This document shows, piece after piece, positions 3,817 to 58,811 of a DNA stretch of 64,000 nt. How positions within the stretch are numbered: position 1 is the stretch's first letter; each line of letters begins with the position of its first letter. The notes under the pieces are model-generated. The model was not told the DNA's origin and did not search any database. It was given only the letters and a program-made list of their open reading frames with translations. A program made the position numbers and the translations under genes. This DNA is from Natronococcus sp. A-GB1 (GTDB lineage Archaea; Halobacteriota; Halobacteria; Halobacteriales; Natrialbaceae): contig NZ_JARUKW010000001.1 of NCBI RefSeq assembly GCF_029688845.1, positions 372,001-436,000 on the forward strand, written 5' to 3'.

Positions 3817-5628
3817 TCAGTCCCGGCCGTGTCGAGTGACGCAACTCGAGAGCCCGATCAGCTCGACGGGTTCCGAGTTGTCCGGCGAGTAGACGACCAT
3901 CTGCCCCTTCTCCATATATGGGACCTTCGACTCGAGATTGGCGGGGATGTTGACGCTCTTGATCGCATCCTCGTCGCCGAGGTTGAGCACGATCGTCGTG
4001 TTGATCTGCTTGAAGACGGCGTCGTCGATGTCCTGGGGGTCCTGGGTGATCAGGAAGAGACCGAGCCGTTCCTTGCGGCCCTGTTTGGCGGCTTCGGTGA
4101 ACTTGGTGATGACCTTTCGCGCCTGGACGCTGTCGGCGTCGGTGAGGAAGTTGTGGGCCTCGTCCATCCCCAGCACGAGCGGCGTCTCCTTGATTCGGTC
4201 GTACGTGGGATCGTTCGAGAGCTTCTCGTCGATCAGCAGCGAGGACAACGCGAGAACGACGGCCTCCGTCGCGCGGGTGTTCGAGACGTGGTAGGTCGGG
4301 ACGACGGTGAGGCCGCCGGGGCGGACGAACTCGTGGATCAGCTCCGTGATCGGGCGGGCGTCCTGGTCGAAGACGTCCTCGAAGCCGAACACCCGGCGAC
4401 GAACGGCGTCGTAGGTCGCCTCGTGGACCCGACCCGACTCGTCGAGTTCCTCGCGCAGGGCGGGGTCGTCGAGGAACGATTTGAACCCCGCGTAGGAGCC
4501 GTCGTTCCCGGCCTCAGTGAAAAAGCGATCGAGGAGGTAGGTCAGCGCGCCGTACTGGTTGTCGTTGAGCGAGCCCCCCGACACGAGCCACGGCCGGGTG
4601 CGACACATCGAGAAGGGGATCGTGAACTCGACGCACTCGGCGCGGTGGTGGCCCGCCGAGTAGCTGGCGTCGCCGACCTTCGGCACGAACGCCGTGGTGT
4701 CCGCGACGCCGCCATGAGCAACCCCCTCGCGCTCGAGCCGACGGGCGAACTCGTCGTCGAGGTCGGGGTTGTCGTCGTGCATCTGGGCGTACTCGTCCTG
4801 AGGGTCGAACTGGACGACGGCGGGGCCGACGGTGCGACCGTCCTCCATCGGGTACTGGCGCTCATCGGCGAGGTACTGCCGGAGGACGTTCTTCGCACCG
4901 TGGGTTTTCCCCGATCCGGTACCACCCGCGACCAGGGTGTGTCGGAAGACGAGCGGGTCGCCCGCCTCGTAGTCGTCTTTCAGTCGGTAGTCGATCGTCG
5001 GCGGGGTGGCTGCGGTCCGTACCTTCTCGCCGCCGACCGAGAGGTGGCCCAGGAAGACGCCGTCTTCGGGCATCTTCAGCCCGGTCTTGATCTCGGTCGT
5101 GTCGTTTGCCTGCCGGACGACCGTCTGGGGCTTGGGGACCCGATCGGTCATCCGCCGTTTGAGTTCGCCGTCGTCGTCGTACAACACCGCGACGGGCTCG
5201 AGCGAGGCGACGAACTTGTAGTCGGCCTCGTCGACGTTGTCCTGGCGCATCGCCCGGCGGGCGTGGATCTCCGTCGCGTCGTCGGCGTGGTACTGCTGGG
5301 CGTACTCGAGGCCGGTGATCCGACAGAACAGCGTCTCGCCGTCGGGGTAGGGCGCGACCAGGTAGCTGCCGATCCGAACCGACGAGCGGTTACCGCTGGT
5401 GACGTAGGCCCGCAACGAGGTGTCGTCTTCGTCCTCGGCGATTCGAAGCCCCTGGGAGACACAGATCGTTCCGATGCCGACGTCCTCGCCCCGCGGTTCG
5501 ACGTCTGCGGGTTCGAACCCGCTCGAGTCGGTCGCCGATGCCGACGTCGATGTCGACGCGCTCGAATCGGCCGTCGAATCGGCGTCCGCGTCGGTATCGA
5601 ACTCGCTGAAATCTCCCAGATCCGTCAT
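3817..5628 (-). CDS. herA: HerA-like ATP-binding protein (DUF87/FtsK-HerA superfamily)
   Basis: 603 residues. Order: low-complexity Asp/Ser-rich leader (1-45), a HAS-barrel-like beta domain (about 50-200), then a RecA-like motor with Walker A GGTGSGKT at 235-242 and Walker B LVLGMDEAHNF near 490, followed by the sensor-like LFLITQDPQDID region. HerA is the hexameric translocase that works with NurA and Mre11-Rad50 in archaeal DNA end resection. A NurA homologue is encoded about 3-4 kb away at 8837-10108, which supports the name. A relative with another role (conjugation-type DUF87 ATPase) cannot be excluded. Confidence 0.8.
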   Translation of the reverse strand: MTDLGDFSEFDTDADADSTADSSASTSTSASATDSSGFEPADVEPRGEDVGIGTICVSQGLRIAEDEDDTSLRAYVTSGNRSSVRIGSYLVAPYPDGETLFCRITGLEYAQQYHADDATEIHARRAMRQDNVDEADYKFVASLEPVAVLYDDDGELKRRMTDRVPKPQTVVRQANDTTEIKTGLKMPEDGVFLGHLSVGGEKVRTAATPPTIDYRLKDDYEAGDPLVFRHTLVAGGTGSGKTHGAKNVLRQYLADERQYPMEDGRTVGPAVVQFDPQDEYAQMHDDNPDLDDEFARRLEREGVAHGGVADTTAFVPKVGDASYSAGHHRAECVEFTIPFSMCRTRPWLVSGGSLNDNQYGALTYLLDRFFTEAGNDGSYAGFKSFLDDPALREELDESGRVHEATYDAVRRRVFGFEDVFDQDARPITELIHEFVRPGGLTVVPTYHVSNTRATEAVVLALSSLLIDEKLSNDPTYDRIKETPLVLGMDEAHNFLTDADSVQARKVITKFTEAAKQGRKERLGLFLITQDPQDIDDAVFKQINTTIVLNLGDEDAIKSVNIPANLESKVPYMEKGQMVVYSPDNSEPVELIGLSSCVTRHGRD

Positions 5629-5710: not shown

Positions 5711-6313
5711 TCAGTTCGTCGACGGCGTCGATCGGTTCGGCCCTCGAACCATTCCGGATCGGGGATCGAACTCGACGGCGCCGACGTCGGTCATCGCCGG
5801 GAGGTGGACGTGGTAGAGCGCGAGGCGGGCCTCGGAACGCTCCGAGAGCGAGTCGACGTCTCGATCGATCAGTTCGGCGGCGAGCGTCTCGACCGAGACT
5901 GCCCGATCCAGCTCCGCGAGCATCGCGTACAGCTGGGTCCGGACAGGATGGACGAGCGTCTCGAGCGTTCGTCCGTCAACCCGGTCACCGCCCTCGAGCA
6001 GCTCCGAGAGGTCGGCGATCGGGAACGATCGCTCGACGGTCCGACAGGCGATCTCGCCGTCCCACTCGATGATTCCGTGGTCGGCCAGCCGCGGCAGGTG
6101 GTTGTGGACGAGCTCGATCCGGATCTCGTCTCGATCGACCGGCTCCCGGGCCGCGATGGTGTCGACGAGCTCCTCGAGGGTGTGTGATCCGTTTTCGAGG
6201 GCTGCCAGCAGGTGAATCCGTTTCGGATGCCGGAGTGCATCGTACCACTCCCGCGAGACGGCTGCCACTCCCCCTTGTGCCCCGTCGCTACTAGTCTGTG
6301 CGTCCGAGCTCAT
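5711..6313 (-). CDS. Tandem winged-helix protein (DUF7344-like, ArsR-type fold)
   Basis: 200 residues with two similar units: residues 18-95 (WYDALRHPKRIHLLAAL ... LPRLADHGIIEWDG) and about 105-190 (ETLVHPVRTQLYAML ... LPAMTDVGAVEFDP). Both have the haloarchaeal DUF7344 pattern of a winged helix ending in LP-L/M-x-D-x-G-x-x-x-F/W-D. Probably a DNA-binding regulator; the ligand is unknown. A GGTTTATTCC box at about 6336-6345 lies 27 bp upstream of the ATG, implying a leaderless mRNA. Confidence 0.8.
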   Translation of the reverse strand: MSSDAQTSSDGAQGGVAAVSREWYDALRHPKRIHLLAALENGSHTLEELVDTIAAREPVDRDEIRIELVHNHLPRLADHGIIEWDGEIACRTVERSFPIADLSELLEGGDRVDGRTLETLVHPVRTQLYAMLAELDRAVSVETLAAELIDRDVDSLSERSEARLALYHVHLPAMTDVGAVEFDPRSGMVRGPNRSTPSTN

Positions 6314-6369
6314 TATACAAAGGCAGTACAGCTACGGGAATAAACCCGGCCCCGAAACAGTTTGGGTTA

Positions 6370-6384
6370 GTATTATTATACTTT
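6370..6384 (+). promoter_or_regulatory. Strong AT-rich promoter-like box with no assigned gene
   Basis: GTATTATTATACTTTT lies in the divergent space between the winged-helix gene and the 109-residue gene at 6544. It is too distant to serve the start at 6544, which has its own GTATTTTTGC box at 6509-6518. It could drive a small RNA or the tiny ORF at 6389-6445 (18 codons). Confidence 0.3.
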
Positions 6385-6543
6385 TGCGATGATCACACGA
6401 AACCCCCGTCGCTGGCCGTCGACAGACGCCGACGCCGCCGACTGAGGCAGCACCGGAACGCCATCGACCGGGCCCGCCTGGGTTTCGAGCGTGAACCGAC
6501 TCGAGTACGGGTATTTTTGCATCTCGGACCCGTAGTTGAACGC

Positions 6544-6873
6544 ATGTTCATCGTGCGCGGTCGAGCGGGCGGAACCGAACTCACCGGAACGGTGTACGAG
6601 CGGGGCGAACGACCCCCCTCGTTCCGGGGTGCACCCGATGAGGACGCCGCGTACGTCTGGATCTGCGACGAGTTCTACGAGGTCGACAGCGGCGGCAGCG
6701 TCCAGGTCGTCGACGGCCGCGAGGTCAACCTCGCCTTCGAGTCGCCGATGCCCCGCGGGTTCGACACCCGCGAACAGGCTCTCGAGGCCGCCAAAGAGCA
6801 CGTTCGCACGCAGTTCGCCAGGATCGGCGTCGACCCGGAGTCGGTCGAACTCGAGGTCGAACGGGACCCTTGA
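6544..6873 (+). CDS. Conserved haloarchaeal protein (DUF7113-like)
   Basis: 109 residues from the ATG at 6544, 26-35 bp after GTATTTTTGC, so leaderless. The sequence begins MFIVRGRAGG and contains PPSFRGAPDEDAAYVWICDEFYEVDSGG and a C-terminal helix RGFDTREQALEAAKEHVRTQFARIG. This matches the haloarchaeal family I remember as DUF7113; the function is unknown. It is soluble, with no membrane segment or metal motif. An upstream in-frame extension exists, but the promoter position favours this start. Confidence 0.75.
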   Translation: MFIVRGRAGGTELTGTVYERGERPPSFRGAPDEDAAYVWICDEFYEVDSGGSVQVVDGREVNLAFESPMPRGFDTREQALEAAKEHVRTQFARIGVDPESVELEVERDP

Positions 6874-29360: not shown

Positions 29361-29402
29361 ATGAACCGCGGCCGCCCGGCTGCCCAGAGGTGTCTCGGAT
29401 GA
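29361..29402 (+). CDS. 13-residue leader ORF coupled to purC
   Basis: ATG AAC CGC ... GGA TGA, encoding MNRGRPAAQRCLG. Its stop overlaps the purC start as ATGA (29399-29402). CTTCTTA at 29332-29338 is about 27 bp upstream, so transcription may start at this ATG, making it a leaderless leader peptide. Comparable tiny coupled ORFs precede purQ and the feoB-like gene in this window. Coding status is unproven. Confidence 0.35.
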   Translation: MNRGRPAAQRCLG

Positions 29403-30418
29403 CGAGCGTCAAGGAGTTCCACATCGAGGAGGAGGCCACCGCCGACAGCCTCGGTGCGGGCTCGTTCGTCTTCACCGACGACTACTCCGTGTTCGACTGG
29501 GGGAAGATGCCCGACCAGATCCCCGATAAGGGCGCGAGCCTCTGTACGATGGGCGCCTTTAATTTCGAGCTCCTCGAGGAGGCCGGCGTGCCGACCCACT
29601 ACCGCGGCGTCGTCGAGAACGGCGAGGTCCGCTCGCTCGAGGAGGCCTCGCGCCCGCCCTGGCAGATGGCGATCGACCTCACCCAGACGCCGAAGCTGCC
29701 CAACGAGGGCCTGGAGTACGACTACGACAGCTACCACGAGGCCGCGGGGGAGAACTTCCTGATCCCCCTCGAGATCGTCTTCCGAAACCGGGTCCCGATC
29801 GGATCGAGCCTGCGCCGGCGCACCGAGCCAGCTGACCACGGGCTCGAGTTTGACTCCTGGCCTGACGAACCCGTCGACCTCCCGGAGCCGGTCGTCGAGT
29901 TCACGACGAAGTACGAGGAGACCGATCGCCAACTCGACCGTGCGGAGGCCGACGAGATCGCCGGGAAGGCCGACCTCGACGAGCTCGAGTCGCTCGCACT
30001 CGAGGTCAACCGGGTCATCACCGAACAGGCCGCCGAAACCGAGCTGGTCCATCAGGACGGCAAGATCGAGTGTCTCTACTACAAGGGCGACGTCGGGGTC
30101 GCGGACGTCGTCGGCACGTTCGACGAGAACCGTTTCAGCTACGGGGCGACCCAGCTCTCGAAGGAGGTGCTGCGCCAGTACCACAAGCGAACCCAGCCCG
30201 AGTGGGTCCAGGCCGTCGAGGCCGCGAAGGCACAGGCTAAACAGGAGGATATCGCCGACTGGCGGTCCCTCTGTGACGTCGAGCCGAAACCGCTCGACGA
30301 CCGCGTGCTCGAGACGGCCCGAAACATGTACTGTGCCGGCACCAACACCTACACCGGACTGGACGTCTTCGACGCCCCGCCGCTCTCGAGTGCCATTGGC
30401 TCCGTTCAGGGGCTGTAG
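29399..30418 (+). CDS. purC: Phosphoribosylaminoimidazole-succinocarboxamide synthase
   Basis: 339 residues from the ATG at 29399 (GTG at 29390 is an alternative). SAICAR synthetase signatures: FVFTDDYSVFDWGKMPDQIPDKG at the ATP-binding lobe, VFRNRVPIGSSLRRR and the Lys/Glu-rich C-lobe. The long haloarchaeal form carries about 100 residues more than the bacterial enzyme. Seventh step of purine synthesis. T-run TTTTT at 30441-30445 after the stop. purS and purQ are 14 kb away. Confidence 0.93.
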   Translation: MTSVKEFHIEEEATADSLGAGSFVFTDDYSVFDWGKMPDQIPDKGASLCTMGAFNFELLEEAGVPTHYRGVVENGEVRSLEEASRPPWQMAIDLTQTPKLPNEGLEYDYDSYHEAAGENFLIPLEIVFRNRVPIGSSLRRRTEPADHGLEFDSWPDEPVDLPEPVVEFTTKYEETDRQLDRAEADEIAGKADLDELESLALEVNRVITEQAAETELVHQDGKIECLYYKGDVGVADVVGTFDENRFSYGATQLSKEVLRQYHKRTQPEWVQAVEAAKAQAKQEDIADWRSLCDVEPKPLDDRVLETARNMYCAGTNTYTGLDVFDAPPLSSAIGSVQGL

Positions 30419-30440
30419 TTCGGGCGCTCTCTCGAGTCGA

Positions 30441-30445
30441 TTTTT
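30441..30445 (+). terminator. T-run after purC
   Basis: CGATTTTTGACGG 23 bp after the purC stop. Confidence 0.4.
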
Positions 30446-30485
30446 GACGGACGGGCGACGGTCCGACACCAGAGACGAACGGTTC

Positions 30486-30777
30486 GACCCCCCTCCCCCC
30501 AGTGTGTCCAGTGTCTTCGGTCGTCTTGCATGTGGTCATCTCCGTATGCGGTCCCTGGAACAGTGTACGGATACAACCGCGACACGTACTGTGATTGCAC
30601 TGTCGATTATCTCTATGACAATCCATCTACCCCGATCTCTCCTCGAACGGACCTGTCGCTCCCTCTTTTTTTGCTATCGTCCGGAAAGATACTAATTACA
30701 AGTTTTGGTCGACAAGCGTCGACAACCTCATCCCACACTCAGTCTCCGAGACACTGGACACAATGGGGTGGGGGGTT
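30486..30777. other. Candidate replication origin: inverted ORB-like repeats around an AT-richer core
   Basis: Left element (30486-30520, read on the minus strand) and right element (30746-30777, plus strand) share GACACTGGACACA followed by TGGGG and a run of six G, that is, an ORB-like TCCAGTG core plus the G-string of haloarchaeal origin recognition boxes. They face each other across about 225 bp. The part near 30600-30720 is roughly half A+T, with TTTTTTTT and AGATACTAATTACAAG, in a genome of about 65% GC. This matches the layout described for Halobacterium and Haloferax origins. No orc1/cdc6 gene adjoins. Confidence 0.55.
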
Positions 30778-30963
30778 CTGGAGGCGGCGGACGGTGCCCC
30801 CTCCGGACAATGTTTCGTTTCACACACCGAGTCCGGAGTCGGCCGGACCGTTCGGAACGGGCGCGCTCGAGACGGTCCGGAACGAGCGTTACACCCTCCG
30901 CGTCGTCACCGAGCCGGGCGCTCGACGTACTGCCGCTCGAGTCCGACCAACCTCATGAGCGGA

Positions 30964-31170
30964 CTACGGGTCGGCAGCGTCAGTCGGCTCTTCCGGCTCC
31001 GGGACGACGTCCGACGAGTATTCGGCCATTCGAAACTCCGTCGATCCACAGCGACAGCTCCCCTTCGTTCCGATCGGTTTGATCGTTCCGTCCGGCCATA
31101 CTTCGGCGGCGTAAGCGGATTCGCAGGAGGTGCAGACGGCCATCCTTCGTCCACTCTCCCCGTCGGGCAT
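30964..31170 (-). CDS. Small zinc-ribbon-like protein
   Basis: 68 residues; a C-x2-C pair (AVCTSCESAY) and a C-x-C pair (GSCRCGSTEF) can bind one zinc ion. Tail is acidic (PEPEEPTDAADP). TATCTATTATC upstream at about 31192-31204 predicts a transcript starting at the ATG at 31170; an internal ATG at 31143 is possible. TACGGCGCCGTA (31170-31181), a perfect 12-bp palindrome, abuts the start codon. Located beside the candidate origin. Possibly a nucleic-acid-binding accessory protein; that is inference. Confidence 0.65.
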   Translation of the reverse strand: MPDGESGRRMAVCTSCESAYAAEVWPDGTIKPIGTKGSCRCGSTEFRMAEYSSDVVPEPEEPTDAADP

Positions 31171-31181
31171 ACGGCGCCGTA
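31170..31181 (-). promoter_or_regulatory. Palindrome abutting the zinc-ribbon gene start
   Basis: TACGGCGCCGTA, perfect 12-bp dyad at the predicted transcription start. Third example in this window of a palindrome touching an ATG. Confidence 0.3.
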
Positions 31182-31291
31182 CTGTTCGTCCGATAATAGA
31201 TATTGTGTGAGGACTCGGGTGAAAAACGAGGTCGAACGTCTTCCGCGCGGAAACGTCGTCTGTGACGGACTTCGAGGACGCTCGAACCGTC

Positions 31292-32365
31292 TCAGGGAGC
31301 AGGCAGCGTCACGAAGAACGTCGACCCCTCGCCGGGCTCGGAGTCGACCTCGATGCTCCCGCCGTGGCGCTCGGCGATCCGCTCACACAGCGCGAGGCCG
31401 ATCCCCGTTCCCTCGTACTCCTCGCGGCTGTGGAGTCGATCGAAGACGTCGAAGATCCGATCCTGATCACCGGGAGCGATCCCGATCCCGTCGTCGCTGA
31501 CCGCGACGATCCACTCGCCGTCGCTCTCCTCGGCCTCCACGTGAACCCGTGGCGGATCCTCGCCCGAGTACGTGATCGCGTTCTCGAGCAGGTTCTGAAA
31601 CAGCCGCCGGAGCTGGCTGCGATCGCCCTCGACCATCGGTAGCGACCCGATCGTCAGCTCGCCGTCATCGTCGTCGACGGCCATCTGGAGGTCCGTGCTG
31701 ACCTCCTCGAGAACGTTCTCGAGGTCGACGGGCTCGAACGGGTCCCCGCGGGTCTCGACGCGGGAGTACTCGAGCAGCCCCTCGATCATGTCCCGCATTC
31801 GTTCGGCGCCGTCGACGGCGAACTCGATGAACTCCCGGCCGTCCTCGTCGAGCTCGTCCTCGTAGCGACGCTCGATCAGGCCGAGGTAGCTCGTGATCAT
31901 TCGCAGGGGTTCCTGGAGGTCGTGGGAAACGGCGTAAGCGAACTGCTGGAGGCGTTCGTTGGACTCCTCGACCCGCCGTTCGCTCAGCTTACGGTCGGTG
32001 ATGTTCCAGTGGGAGACGATCGCGTACAGCTCGTCCTCGTAGCGCGTCCGTTCGACGGTCAGCTGGAACCACTGCTGCGAGTCCGGCGAGTGGCAGGGGT
32101 ACTCGAGGGTAAACGTCTCCTGTTCGCCCTCAAGGACGGCCCGAACGCCCTCGACCGCCTGCTCGGCGTACGGGCTGTCGCTGTCCTCGCAGACCTCGAC
32201 GTAGTTGACGCCGACGCTGTCGACCAGCGGCTGGAGTTCGTTCTCCTCGGCGAAGGACTTCCAGGCCTCGTTCGTCCCCAGAATCGCGCCCTCATCGTCC
32301 AGCACTGCGATGTTCGGCGCGAGCGTATCGAGGACGTGTGACCCCAGCCCCTCGGGTATCTCCAT
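31292..32365 (-). CDS. PAS-domain sensor histidine kinase
   Basis: 357 residues from the ATG at 32365. The PAS sensor (about 10-125) is followed by HisKA with phospho-acceptor His148 in AVSHDLQEPLRMI, and a complete HATPase_c domain with N box LLENAITYSG, G1 DDGIGIAPGD, and G2 GTGIGLALCERI. No membrane segment, so it is cytoplasmic and senses an internal signal through PAS. No response regulator adjoins, which is common in haloarchaea. Its partner is unknown. Confidence 0.92.
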   Translation of the reverse strand: MEIPEGLGSHVLDTLAPNIAVLDDEGAILGTNEAWKSFAEENELQPLVDSVGVNYVEVCEDSDSPYAEQAVEGVRAVLEGEQETFTLEYPCHSPDSQQWFQLTVERTRYEDELYAIVSHWNITDRKLSERRVEESNERLQQFAYAVSHDLQEPLRMITSYLGLIERRYEDELDEDGREFIEFAVDGAERMRDMIEGLLEYSRVETRGDPFEPVDLENVLEEVSTDLQMAVDDDDGELTIGSLPMVEGDRSQLRRLFQNLLENAITYSGEDPPRVHVEAEESDGEWIVAVSDDGIGIAPGDQDRIFDVFDRLHSREEYEGTGIGLALCERIAERHGGSIEVDSEPGEGSTFFVTLPAP

Positions 32366-32506
32366 ACGAACAGGTCCGGCTGCTGCTGTAAATGCCGTTC
32401 GGTCGTCCCGTTGACCCACCCGACGGAGGGGGATGGCGGTTCCACGAAGTCGACCACGAAAAAGTAACACTCATGTGAGCCGATACGAAAGGAACGGCCG
32501 AAAGCG

Positions 32507-58066: not shown

Positions 58067-58811
58067 GGCACTGTCTAGTTGAGCCAGTTTGAGAAACGAG
58101 CAGGTCGTTGAGTGAATTGGTTAGGATGCTCGCAGACCTGCTCAGCGAGAGCTACGACGCGGATTTAGAAGAATCTTGGGAGAACGAGCGGACGGCGACG
58201 CCCGTCAGGGCGTTCGCCGTCCGCCTTCATCAGACCGGTTGTTCACTTCGGGAGACAACAACGATTCTCGCTGAATTAGACGTTGAGCGCTCTCACGGAG
58301 CGGTCTGGAACTGGGTACATCGGCTGGCTGACATCGGGTACGACCCGCCTGAGGCGCAGCCGAAGCGGGTCGCGATTGACGAGACCGCTGTCAAGATCAA
58401 TGGCGAGTGGTCTTGGCTGTGCGCTGCAATAGACACCGAAACGAAGCTGATTCTCGATGTCGCATTGTTTGGTCGGCATGGCACCGTTCCGGCAGCTGCG
58501 TTTCTGCATCGACTTAACGAGAAATACGATCTCTCCGACACCGTATTTCTCGTCGATCAATTCGGCTATCGAACTGCCCTTGCTCGATTAGGGTTAAGCG
58601 GTCGGGTCAACTATACCGAGCGAAACCTCATCGAAAAATGGTTTCACACCCTCAAAGTGCGCATCGACCGCTTCCATAACTCGTGGGTGGGCAGTCGGGC
58701 GAGTGCACGCGAATGGTTTGAACGATTCATGCACTACTACAACCGCCAGAGACTGCACCAAGCTCTCGACGGAAAGACGCCGATCGAGGAGGTGCAGAAC
58801 TAGACAGTGCC
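58067..58811 (+). mobile_element. Intact IS6-family insertion sequence
   Basis: 745 bp bounded by perfect 14-bp inverted repeats GGCACTGTCTAGTT (58067-58080) and AACTAGACAGTGCC (58798-58811). An exact 8-bp target duplication TGAACAGG flanks it (58059-58066 and 58812-58819). GC is clearly lower than the surroundings. The exact duplication and intact transposase indicate a recent jump. Confidence 0.95.
58108..58803 (+). CDS. tnpA: IS6-family DDE transposase
   Basis: 231 residues from TTG at 58108, or 225 from the ATG at 58126. Sequence RTATPVRAFAVRLHQTGCSLRETTTILAEL is the N-terminal HTH. The DDE catalytic triad is Asp91 (VAIDETAVKING), Asp150 (VFLVDQFGY) and Glu176 (ERNLIEKWFHTLK), with the YNRQRLHQALDGKTPIEE C-terminus. 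Resembles ISH14/ISH29-type haloarchaeal IS6 elements. Appears fully intact, so probably active. Confidence 0.93.
   Translation: MSELVRMLADLLSESYDADLEESWENERTATPVRAFAVRLHQTGCSLRETTTILAELDVERSHGAVWNWVHRLADIGYDPPEAQPKRVAIDETAVKINGEWSWLCAAIDTETKLILDVALFGRHGTVPAAAFLHRLNEKYDLSDTVFLVDQFGYRTALARLGLSGRVNYTERNLIEKWFHTLKVRIDRFHNSWVGSRASAREWFERFMHYYNRQRLHQALDGKTPIEEVQN

Follow-up and report, generated by a model that had tools for sequence, protein, structure and literature searches.

The occurrence of an origin-like pair of ORBs without an adjoining orc1/cdc6 gene in Natronococcus sp. A-GB1 raises the question of whether the locus is a replication origin and, if so, what became of its initiator. In the window, i.e., the whole 64-kb stretch of DNA analysed here, a first-pass annotation had described two head-to-head elements sharing a sequence and a G-string around about 225 bp with an AT-rich, T-tract-containing core, and had suggested a dormant, integrated or trans-served origin. 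Based on comparison with related genomes, the locus is very probably an orphaned origin whose orc1 was lost by ORB × ORB deletion from a plasmid-type cassette.

The inverted ORB pair and its class

The two elements are 27-nt head-to-head arms that are complementary at 24 of 27 positions and enclose 232 bp (Table 1). Both contain GACACTGGACACA exactly (30503-30515 on the minus strand and 30750-30762 on the plus strand), followed in each arm by NNGGGG and then a longer G-string, so that the first-pass description of the elements holds. No other inverted repeat in the 64 kb reaches 24/27 with its arms within about 500 bp of each other, and 100 Markov-1 random sequences matched in length and dinucleotide make-up yielded none; the 13-mer GACACTGGACACA alone with 2 mismatches is within chance, whereas the paired 27-nt layout is beyond it. 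Genome-wide, GACACTGGACACANNGGGG with at most 2 mismatches matches the two window sites only. The core, 50% AT (50% GC) against 66% GC in the window, lies at the 99.9th percentile among 232-bp window stretches and thus provides the AT-rich stretch expected of an unwinding region between ORBs, its AT content being modest in absolute terms. GC skew within the window displayed no clear shift at the ORB pair. At the sequence level, the arms are haloarchaeal ORBs and the locus has the origin anatomy of the haloarchaeal type. Elsewhere in the window, the ORF at 58108-58803 resembles an IS6-family transposase as judged by eye, and 57-61 kb is a lower-GC stretch.

Table 1. Coordinates of the ORB pair, the core and the flanking genes in the window
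Feature	Position	Strand	Remarks
purC (SAICAR synthetase), left flanking gene	29390..30418	+	fixes the syntenic site
Left (outer) ORB, minus-strand sequence GACACTGGACACACTGGGGGGAGGGG	30490..30516	-	also present next to orc1 in G092 and in other genera
Putative origin core, 50% AT, with T7 tract	30517..30748	.	identical at 214/232 positions to the core preceding orc1 in Natronococcus sp. A-GB7
Broken central motif, GCTATCG/TCCGGAA after 8-bp loss	30669..30685 (approximate span)	+	relatives have GCTATCGTTCGGACTA, G092 has GCTATCGTTCGGAACT
Right ORB, chimeric; probable scar of the 1,488-bp deletion of orc1 and intervening ORBs	30749..30775	+	agrees with the intact cassette's inner ORB in its left flank and with the outermost one in its right flank
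Small Cys-containing protein, 59 aa, right flank	30964..31143	-	DNA about 99% identical in N. amylolyticus
PAS/HisKA/HATPase histidine kinase, right flanking gene	31292..32470	-	fixes the syntenic site

Genomes of the family were searched for the ORB and the surroundings of each match were inspected; most matches adjoin an orc1/cdc6 gene. The class was defined by the ORB consensus GACACTGGACANNNTGGGG together with an Orc1/Cdc6 at least 83% identical to the Orc1 of Natronococcus sp. A-GB7 (G092), a sister species. Such a gene, encoding a protein with Cdc6 lid and winged-helix domains, is present in 13 of the 125 family genomes, and all 13 loci carry this ORB type, in most cases with an inverted pair upstream of the gene and directly oriented copies downstream; the usual pair is missing upstream in G026, and the ORB variants of G104 and G026 were missed by the exact pattern. 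The window locus likewise has an inverted ORB pair with the halophile G-string. The haloarchaeal origin layout recognized in the first-pass annotation is thus borne out by the same ORBs beside orc1/cdc6 in relatives, and the match to an Orc1-linked ORB that it called for was obtained across genomes but not within the host genome. Related initiators at 73-74% and 62-63% identity are paired with other ORBs, AGCACTGGAANCAGTGGGG and GAACAGCGGACANAGTGGGG, respectively, and the GAACAGCGGACANAGTGGGG group includes the sole annotated initiator found on Haloarcula hispanica pHH400, which is cdc6K by the literature (PMC3528665). As an exception, one class ORB in G009 (C13:8991-9006; L080 4992) lies near a 63% Orc1 of the neighbouring class, and it may be a relic of a lost cassette. 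Since class members sit on megaplasmids of related genera, an integrated origin, one of the earlier suggestions, is plausible, and we infer a plasmid-type descent for the window cassette. A phage search for the class initiator returned only 25-29% relatives.

GCTATCGTTCGGACTA lies between the ORBs of most orc1-linked origins in the class and is inverted once (G102). This motif was first spotted by eye in the alignment and counted afterwards, and the count is therefore descriptive: its 12-base heart occurs with at most one mismatch in 10 of the 11 orc1-linked origins compared, the exception being G056. The loss of 8 bp from it in the window core is a single event, however, and the orc1-bearing G056 also has no good copy.

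Probable excision of orc1 at an ORB

In Natronococcus sp. A-GB7, the same site between purC and the kinase gene reads purC, ORB>, core, <ORB, orc1, three further <ORB and kinase. The window equals this arrangement minus 1,488 bp and is thus homologous, at the same site, to an orc1-bearing cassette, as a relic of the class would be. Window positions 30301-30774 align with G092 3994-4473 at 91% identity and positions 30747-31400 with G092 5936-6596 at 83% identity; the two alignments overlap solely in the ORB, and in G092 orc1 and ORBs lie between them. In G092, the end of the left alignment falls within the inner ORB and the start of the right one within the outermost ORB, 1,488 bp away. The breakpoint is located inside an ORB, and the right window ORB is a chimera of the inner and outermost ORBs, which points to excision of orc1 by ORB × ORB recombination. 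As the inner ORB is repeated in direct orientation downstream of orc1, the gene could be removed cleanly by recombination or slippage between such copies.

A probable course of events may be proposed from these alignments. The ancestor would have carried a plasmid-type ori-orc1 cassette on the Natronococcus chromosome between purC and the histidine kinase gene, in the order ORB>, AT-rich core, <ORB, orc1 and more <ORB copies. Then, recombination or slippage of the inner ORB upstream of orc1 with the outermost ORB downstream would have deleted 1,488 bp together with orc1, and a complete-looking ORB pair and core would have remained without the cognate initiator. The orphaned site is probably silent now and would be expected to decay, but both window ORBs are intact and decay is not yet visible there. 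Over 232 positions, the window core shows 18 differences from that of G092 and, in addition, an 8-bp gap, whereas the four-fold divergence of the host (G000) is 12.7% to N. amylolyticus (G087) and 20.2% to G092; slower change in the core than at four-fold sites can reflect constraint before orc1 loss.

Chance, misassembly or an unrelated element (for instance, a MITE) can practically be dismissed as the source of this structure. Short direct repeats can mislead assemblers, but the site lies inside a 507-kb contig with both flanks syntenic, and the deleted segment is absent from the assembly. Moreover, the random sequences contained no such repeat, and the element is single-copy and conserved across genera.

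Probable graded loss among the relatives

Six related Natronococcus genomes (G000, G087, G088, G089, G091 and G092) all carry class ORBs at the kinase. At this site, orc1 is intact in G092 and G088, reduced to a C-terminal fragment in G089 and to a 39-codon fragment in G091, and absent from G000 and G087. In the tree with G090, G093 and G094 as outgroups (support range 57 to 100), G000 and N. amylolyticus are sisters, followed by G092, with G091, G089 and G088 further out, and G000 is nested among orc1 bearers. The most economical explanation is that at least three lineages lost orc1. Conversely, the orc1-less state could be ancestral, G092 and G088 having gained orc1 via a circle into an ORB, or the window could be mosaic, with an origin from a donor fused at an ORB to a flank of the recipient. 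The crossover geometry is reciprocal, such that insertion of an orc1 circle into an ORB leaves the same breakpoint as a deletion, and the relative similarity to N. amylolyticus and to G092 changes from one side of the site to the other. Nevertheless, these routes are decidedly unlikely: orc1 fragments occur at the site in G089 and G091, other genera have the ORB pair and core along with orc1, and the position of G000 among bearers speaks against an ancestral absence, while even in a mosaic orc1 would still have been excluded at an ORB. The case for loss rests on the tree, in which some splits have 57-87% support, together with the orc1 fragments in sister lineages.

The G089 locus (L137 6945-7706) has four direct ORBs and the C-terminal orc1 fragment beside the kinase, and purC was not found near it within the 15 kb retrieved. 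In G088 (N. jeotgali, L153), purC and cofH are on the other side of purN, and the block from the kinase to purN seems to have the opposite orientation to that in the window. The ORBs of N. amylolyticus are degenerate, and comparison of its spacer with the core, orc1 and downstream array gave at most a weak hint for the array (p 0.036, best of four comparisons). In another genus, G018 C7 (L082 4399-4900) has the ORB pair and the downstream array without orc1; at its junction, the inner ORB is joined to an ORB-like stretch at the orc1 3' end, a similarly precise deletion, and a second locus of this genome holds a broken C-terminal orc1 fragment. In G075, 1.8 kb has been lost and a single ORB remains, and G057 and G058 each kept one ORB with a homologous flank.

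Changes in the orc1 fragments are biased to third positions in G089 and more weakly in G018 C3; the G091 fragment is too short to judge. Since the G089 fragment is still third-position-biased, its loss looks recent, and intact orphan ORBs need no function; the orphaning of the window origin is probably recent. Reading ORB conservation in orphans as selection was set aside, because conservation carries no information on selection when some of the losses, at least, appear to be recent. The retained ORBs could alternatively act as a decoy that titrates the initiator of incoming same-class plasmids and hinders their establishment, in keeping with the class being found on megaplasmids of related genera and with several genomes retaining ORBs without orc1. 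Such a role is very unlikely, in that recent loss leaves ORBs intact without selection, the N. amylolyticus ORBs have degenerated, and two ORBs are few for titration.

Host initiators, known origins and the meaning of an orphan

No orc1/cdc6 was found in the window or elsewhere on its 507-kb contig, apart from one weak partial match (E 6e-4). The first-pass annotation was thus right about the missing neighbour, which in relatives lies in the cassette at the same site and which is deleted from the window relative to G092. The host genome has at least 14 other Orc1/Cdc6 genes above the family cut-off; none in the assembly is of the class, the best reaching 36% over the full length and none exceeding 41% over any long stretch, and the deleted G092 segment with orc1 is absent everywhere in it. 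Scans for G-string repeats revealed convincing ORB families beside nine of these genes (L005; L006 to L013), all unlike the window ORB, and none at L014 to L019. One locus (G000:C12:79357-82671; L013/L020) encodes an oriC1-type Orc1 within an open frame of 580 aa and has ORBs of the type CTCCAGTTGAAACGAAGGGG, and it is probably the main chromosomal origin. Because no class Orc1 was found and the ORBs beside nine host genes belong to other families, no cognate initiator appears to remain anywhere in the genome, although a draft of 57 contigs (99.96% complete) could miss an initiator-bearing plasmid.

Since haloarchaeal origins need their own Cdc6, silence of the window origin is the best prediction from this analysis, even though Cdc6 is able to act in trans in principle. 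Individual H. hispanica origins depend on the co-located cdc6, though trans supply is possible (PMC3936714), and no transformants were obtained with Haloferax mediterranei oriC4 devoid of cdc6H when the recipient strain also lacked this gene (PMC4595724). A live or conditionally dormant origin, fired in trans by another host Orc1/Cdc6 or by the initiator of an unassembled plasmid, could draw on both intact ORBs, most of the core and the many host initiators, and Cdc6 proteins of H. hispanica can recognize their own origins in trans (PMC3936714). This reading is nonetheless unlikely given the distance of the host Orc1 proteins from the class, the other ORB families beside nine of their genes, the window ORB having no other genomic copy, and the specificity of Haloarcula origins for the co-located Cdc6. 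The term "trans-served" in the first-pass annotation is accordingly not supported, and "dormant", in the sense of H. mediterranei oriC4-cdc6H with its own initiator, does not fit, whereas "orphaned" does.

Of the known systems, oriP-cdc6K of H. hispanica pHH400 is similar in its initiator (62% to the G092 Orc1) and in an ORB layout of GAACAGCGGACAAAGTGGGG with a long G-string; in contrast to the orc1-less window, it has a different ORB core and an adjacent cdc6, and its ARS activity was demonstrated (PMC3528665). Five of the seven predicted H. hispanica origins are active, the inactive ones being oriC4 and oriC5 (PMC3528665). Intact cassettes of the relatives resemble oriC2-cdc6E with the ORB-rich oriC2D (PMC3936714) in having the origin upstream and an ORB array downstream of the initiator, whereas the window kept the upstream pair only and lost initiator and array. 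Dormant oriC4-cdc6H of H. mediterranei (PMC4595724) is likewise an extra chromosomal origin thought to be recently acquired, but it keeps its own cdc6 and can be activated when other origins are deleted, unlike the window origin without a cognate initiator. The oriC3-cdc6D variants of Haloarcula (PMC3528665, PMC4441112) similarly represent origins gained, disrupted and lost in related species, their disruption being attributed to transposases, whereas the window loss would have proceeded via ORB recombination with survival of the origin half and its matched pair. Gain, deletion and transposase disruption of origins were described in the 2014 Haloarcula study (PMC4441112); a limited search of the open-access literature yielded no description of an initiator being excised between ORBs. 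The main survey of haloarchaeal origins, from 2012, was confined to intergenic regions next to orc/cdc6, and its authors did not exclude origins elsewhere (PMC3528665); origins without the gene were therefore out of its scope by design.

It is conceivable, though quite improbable, that ORBs act as built-in excision points by which cassettes repeatedly shed their initiator, the orphan ORBs staying as latent sites that are fired by a same-class plasmid or titrate its initiator as incompatibility loci. The window locus offers a mechanism for how orphan origins arise, and one genus provides a graded natural series of intact cassettes, an ORB pair only, gene fragments and degenerate ORBs. With this series, it becomes possible to test by what steps an acquired origin disappears from a chromosome, whether the initiator is lost before its binding sites, and whether orphan ORBs affect the later entry of plasmids.
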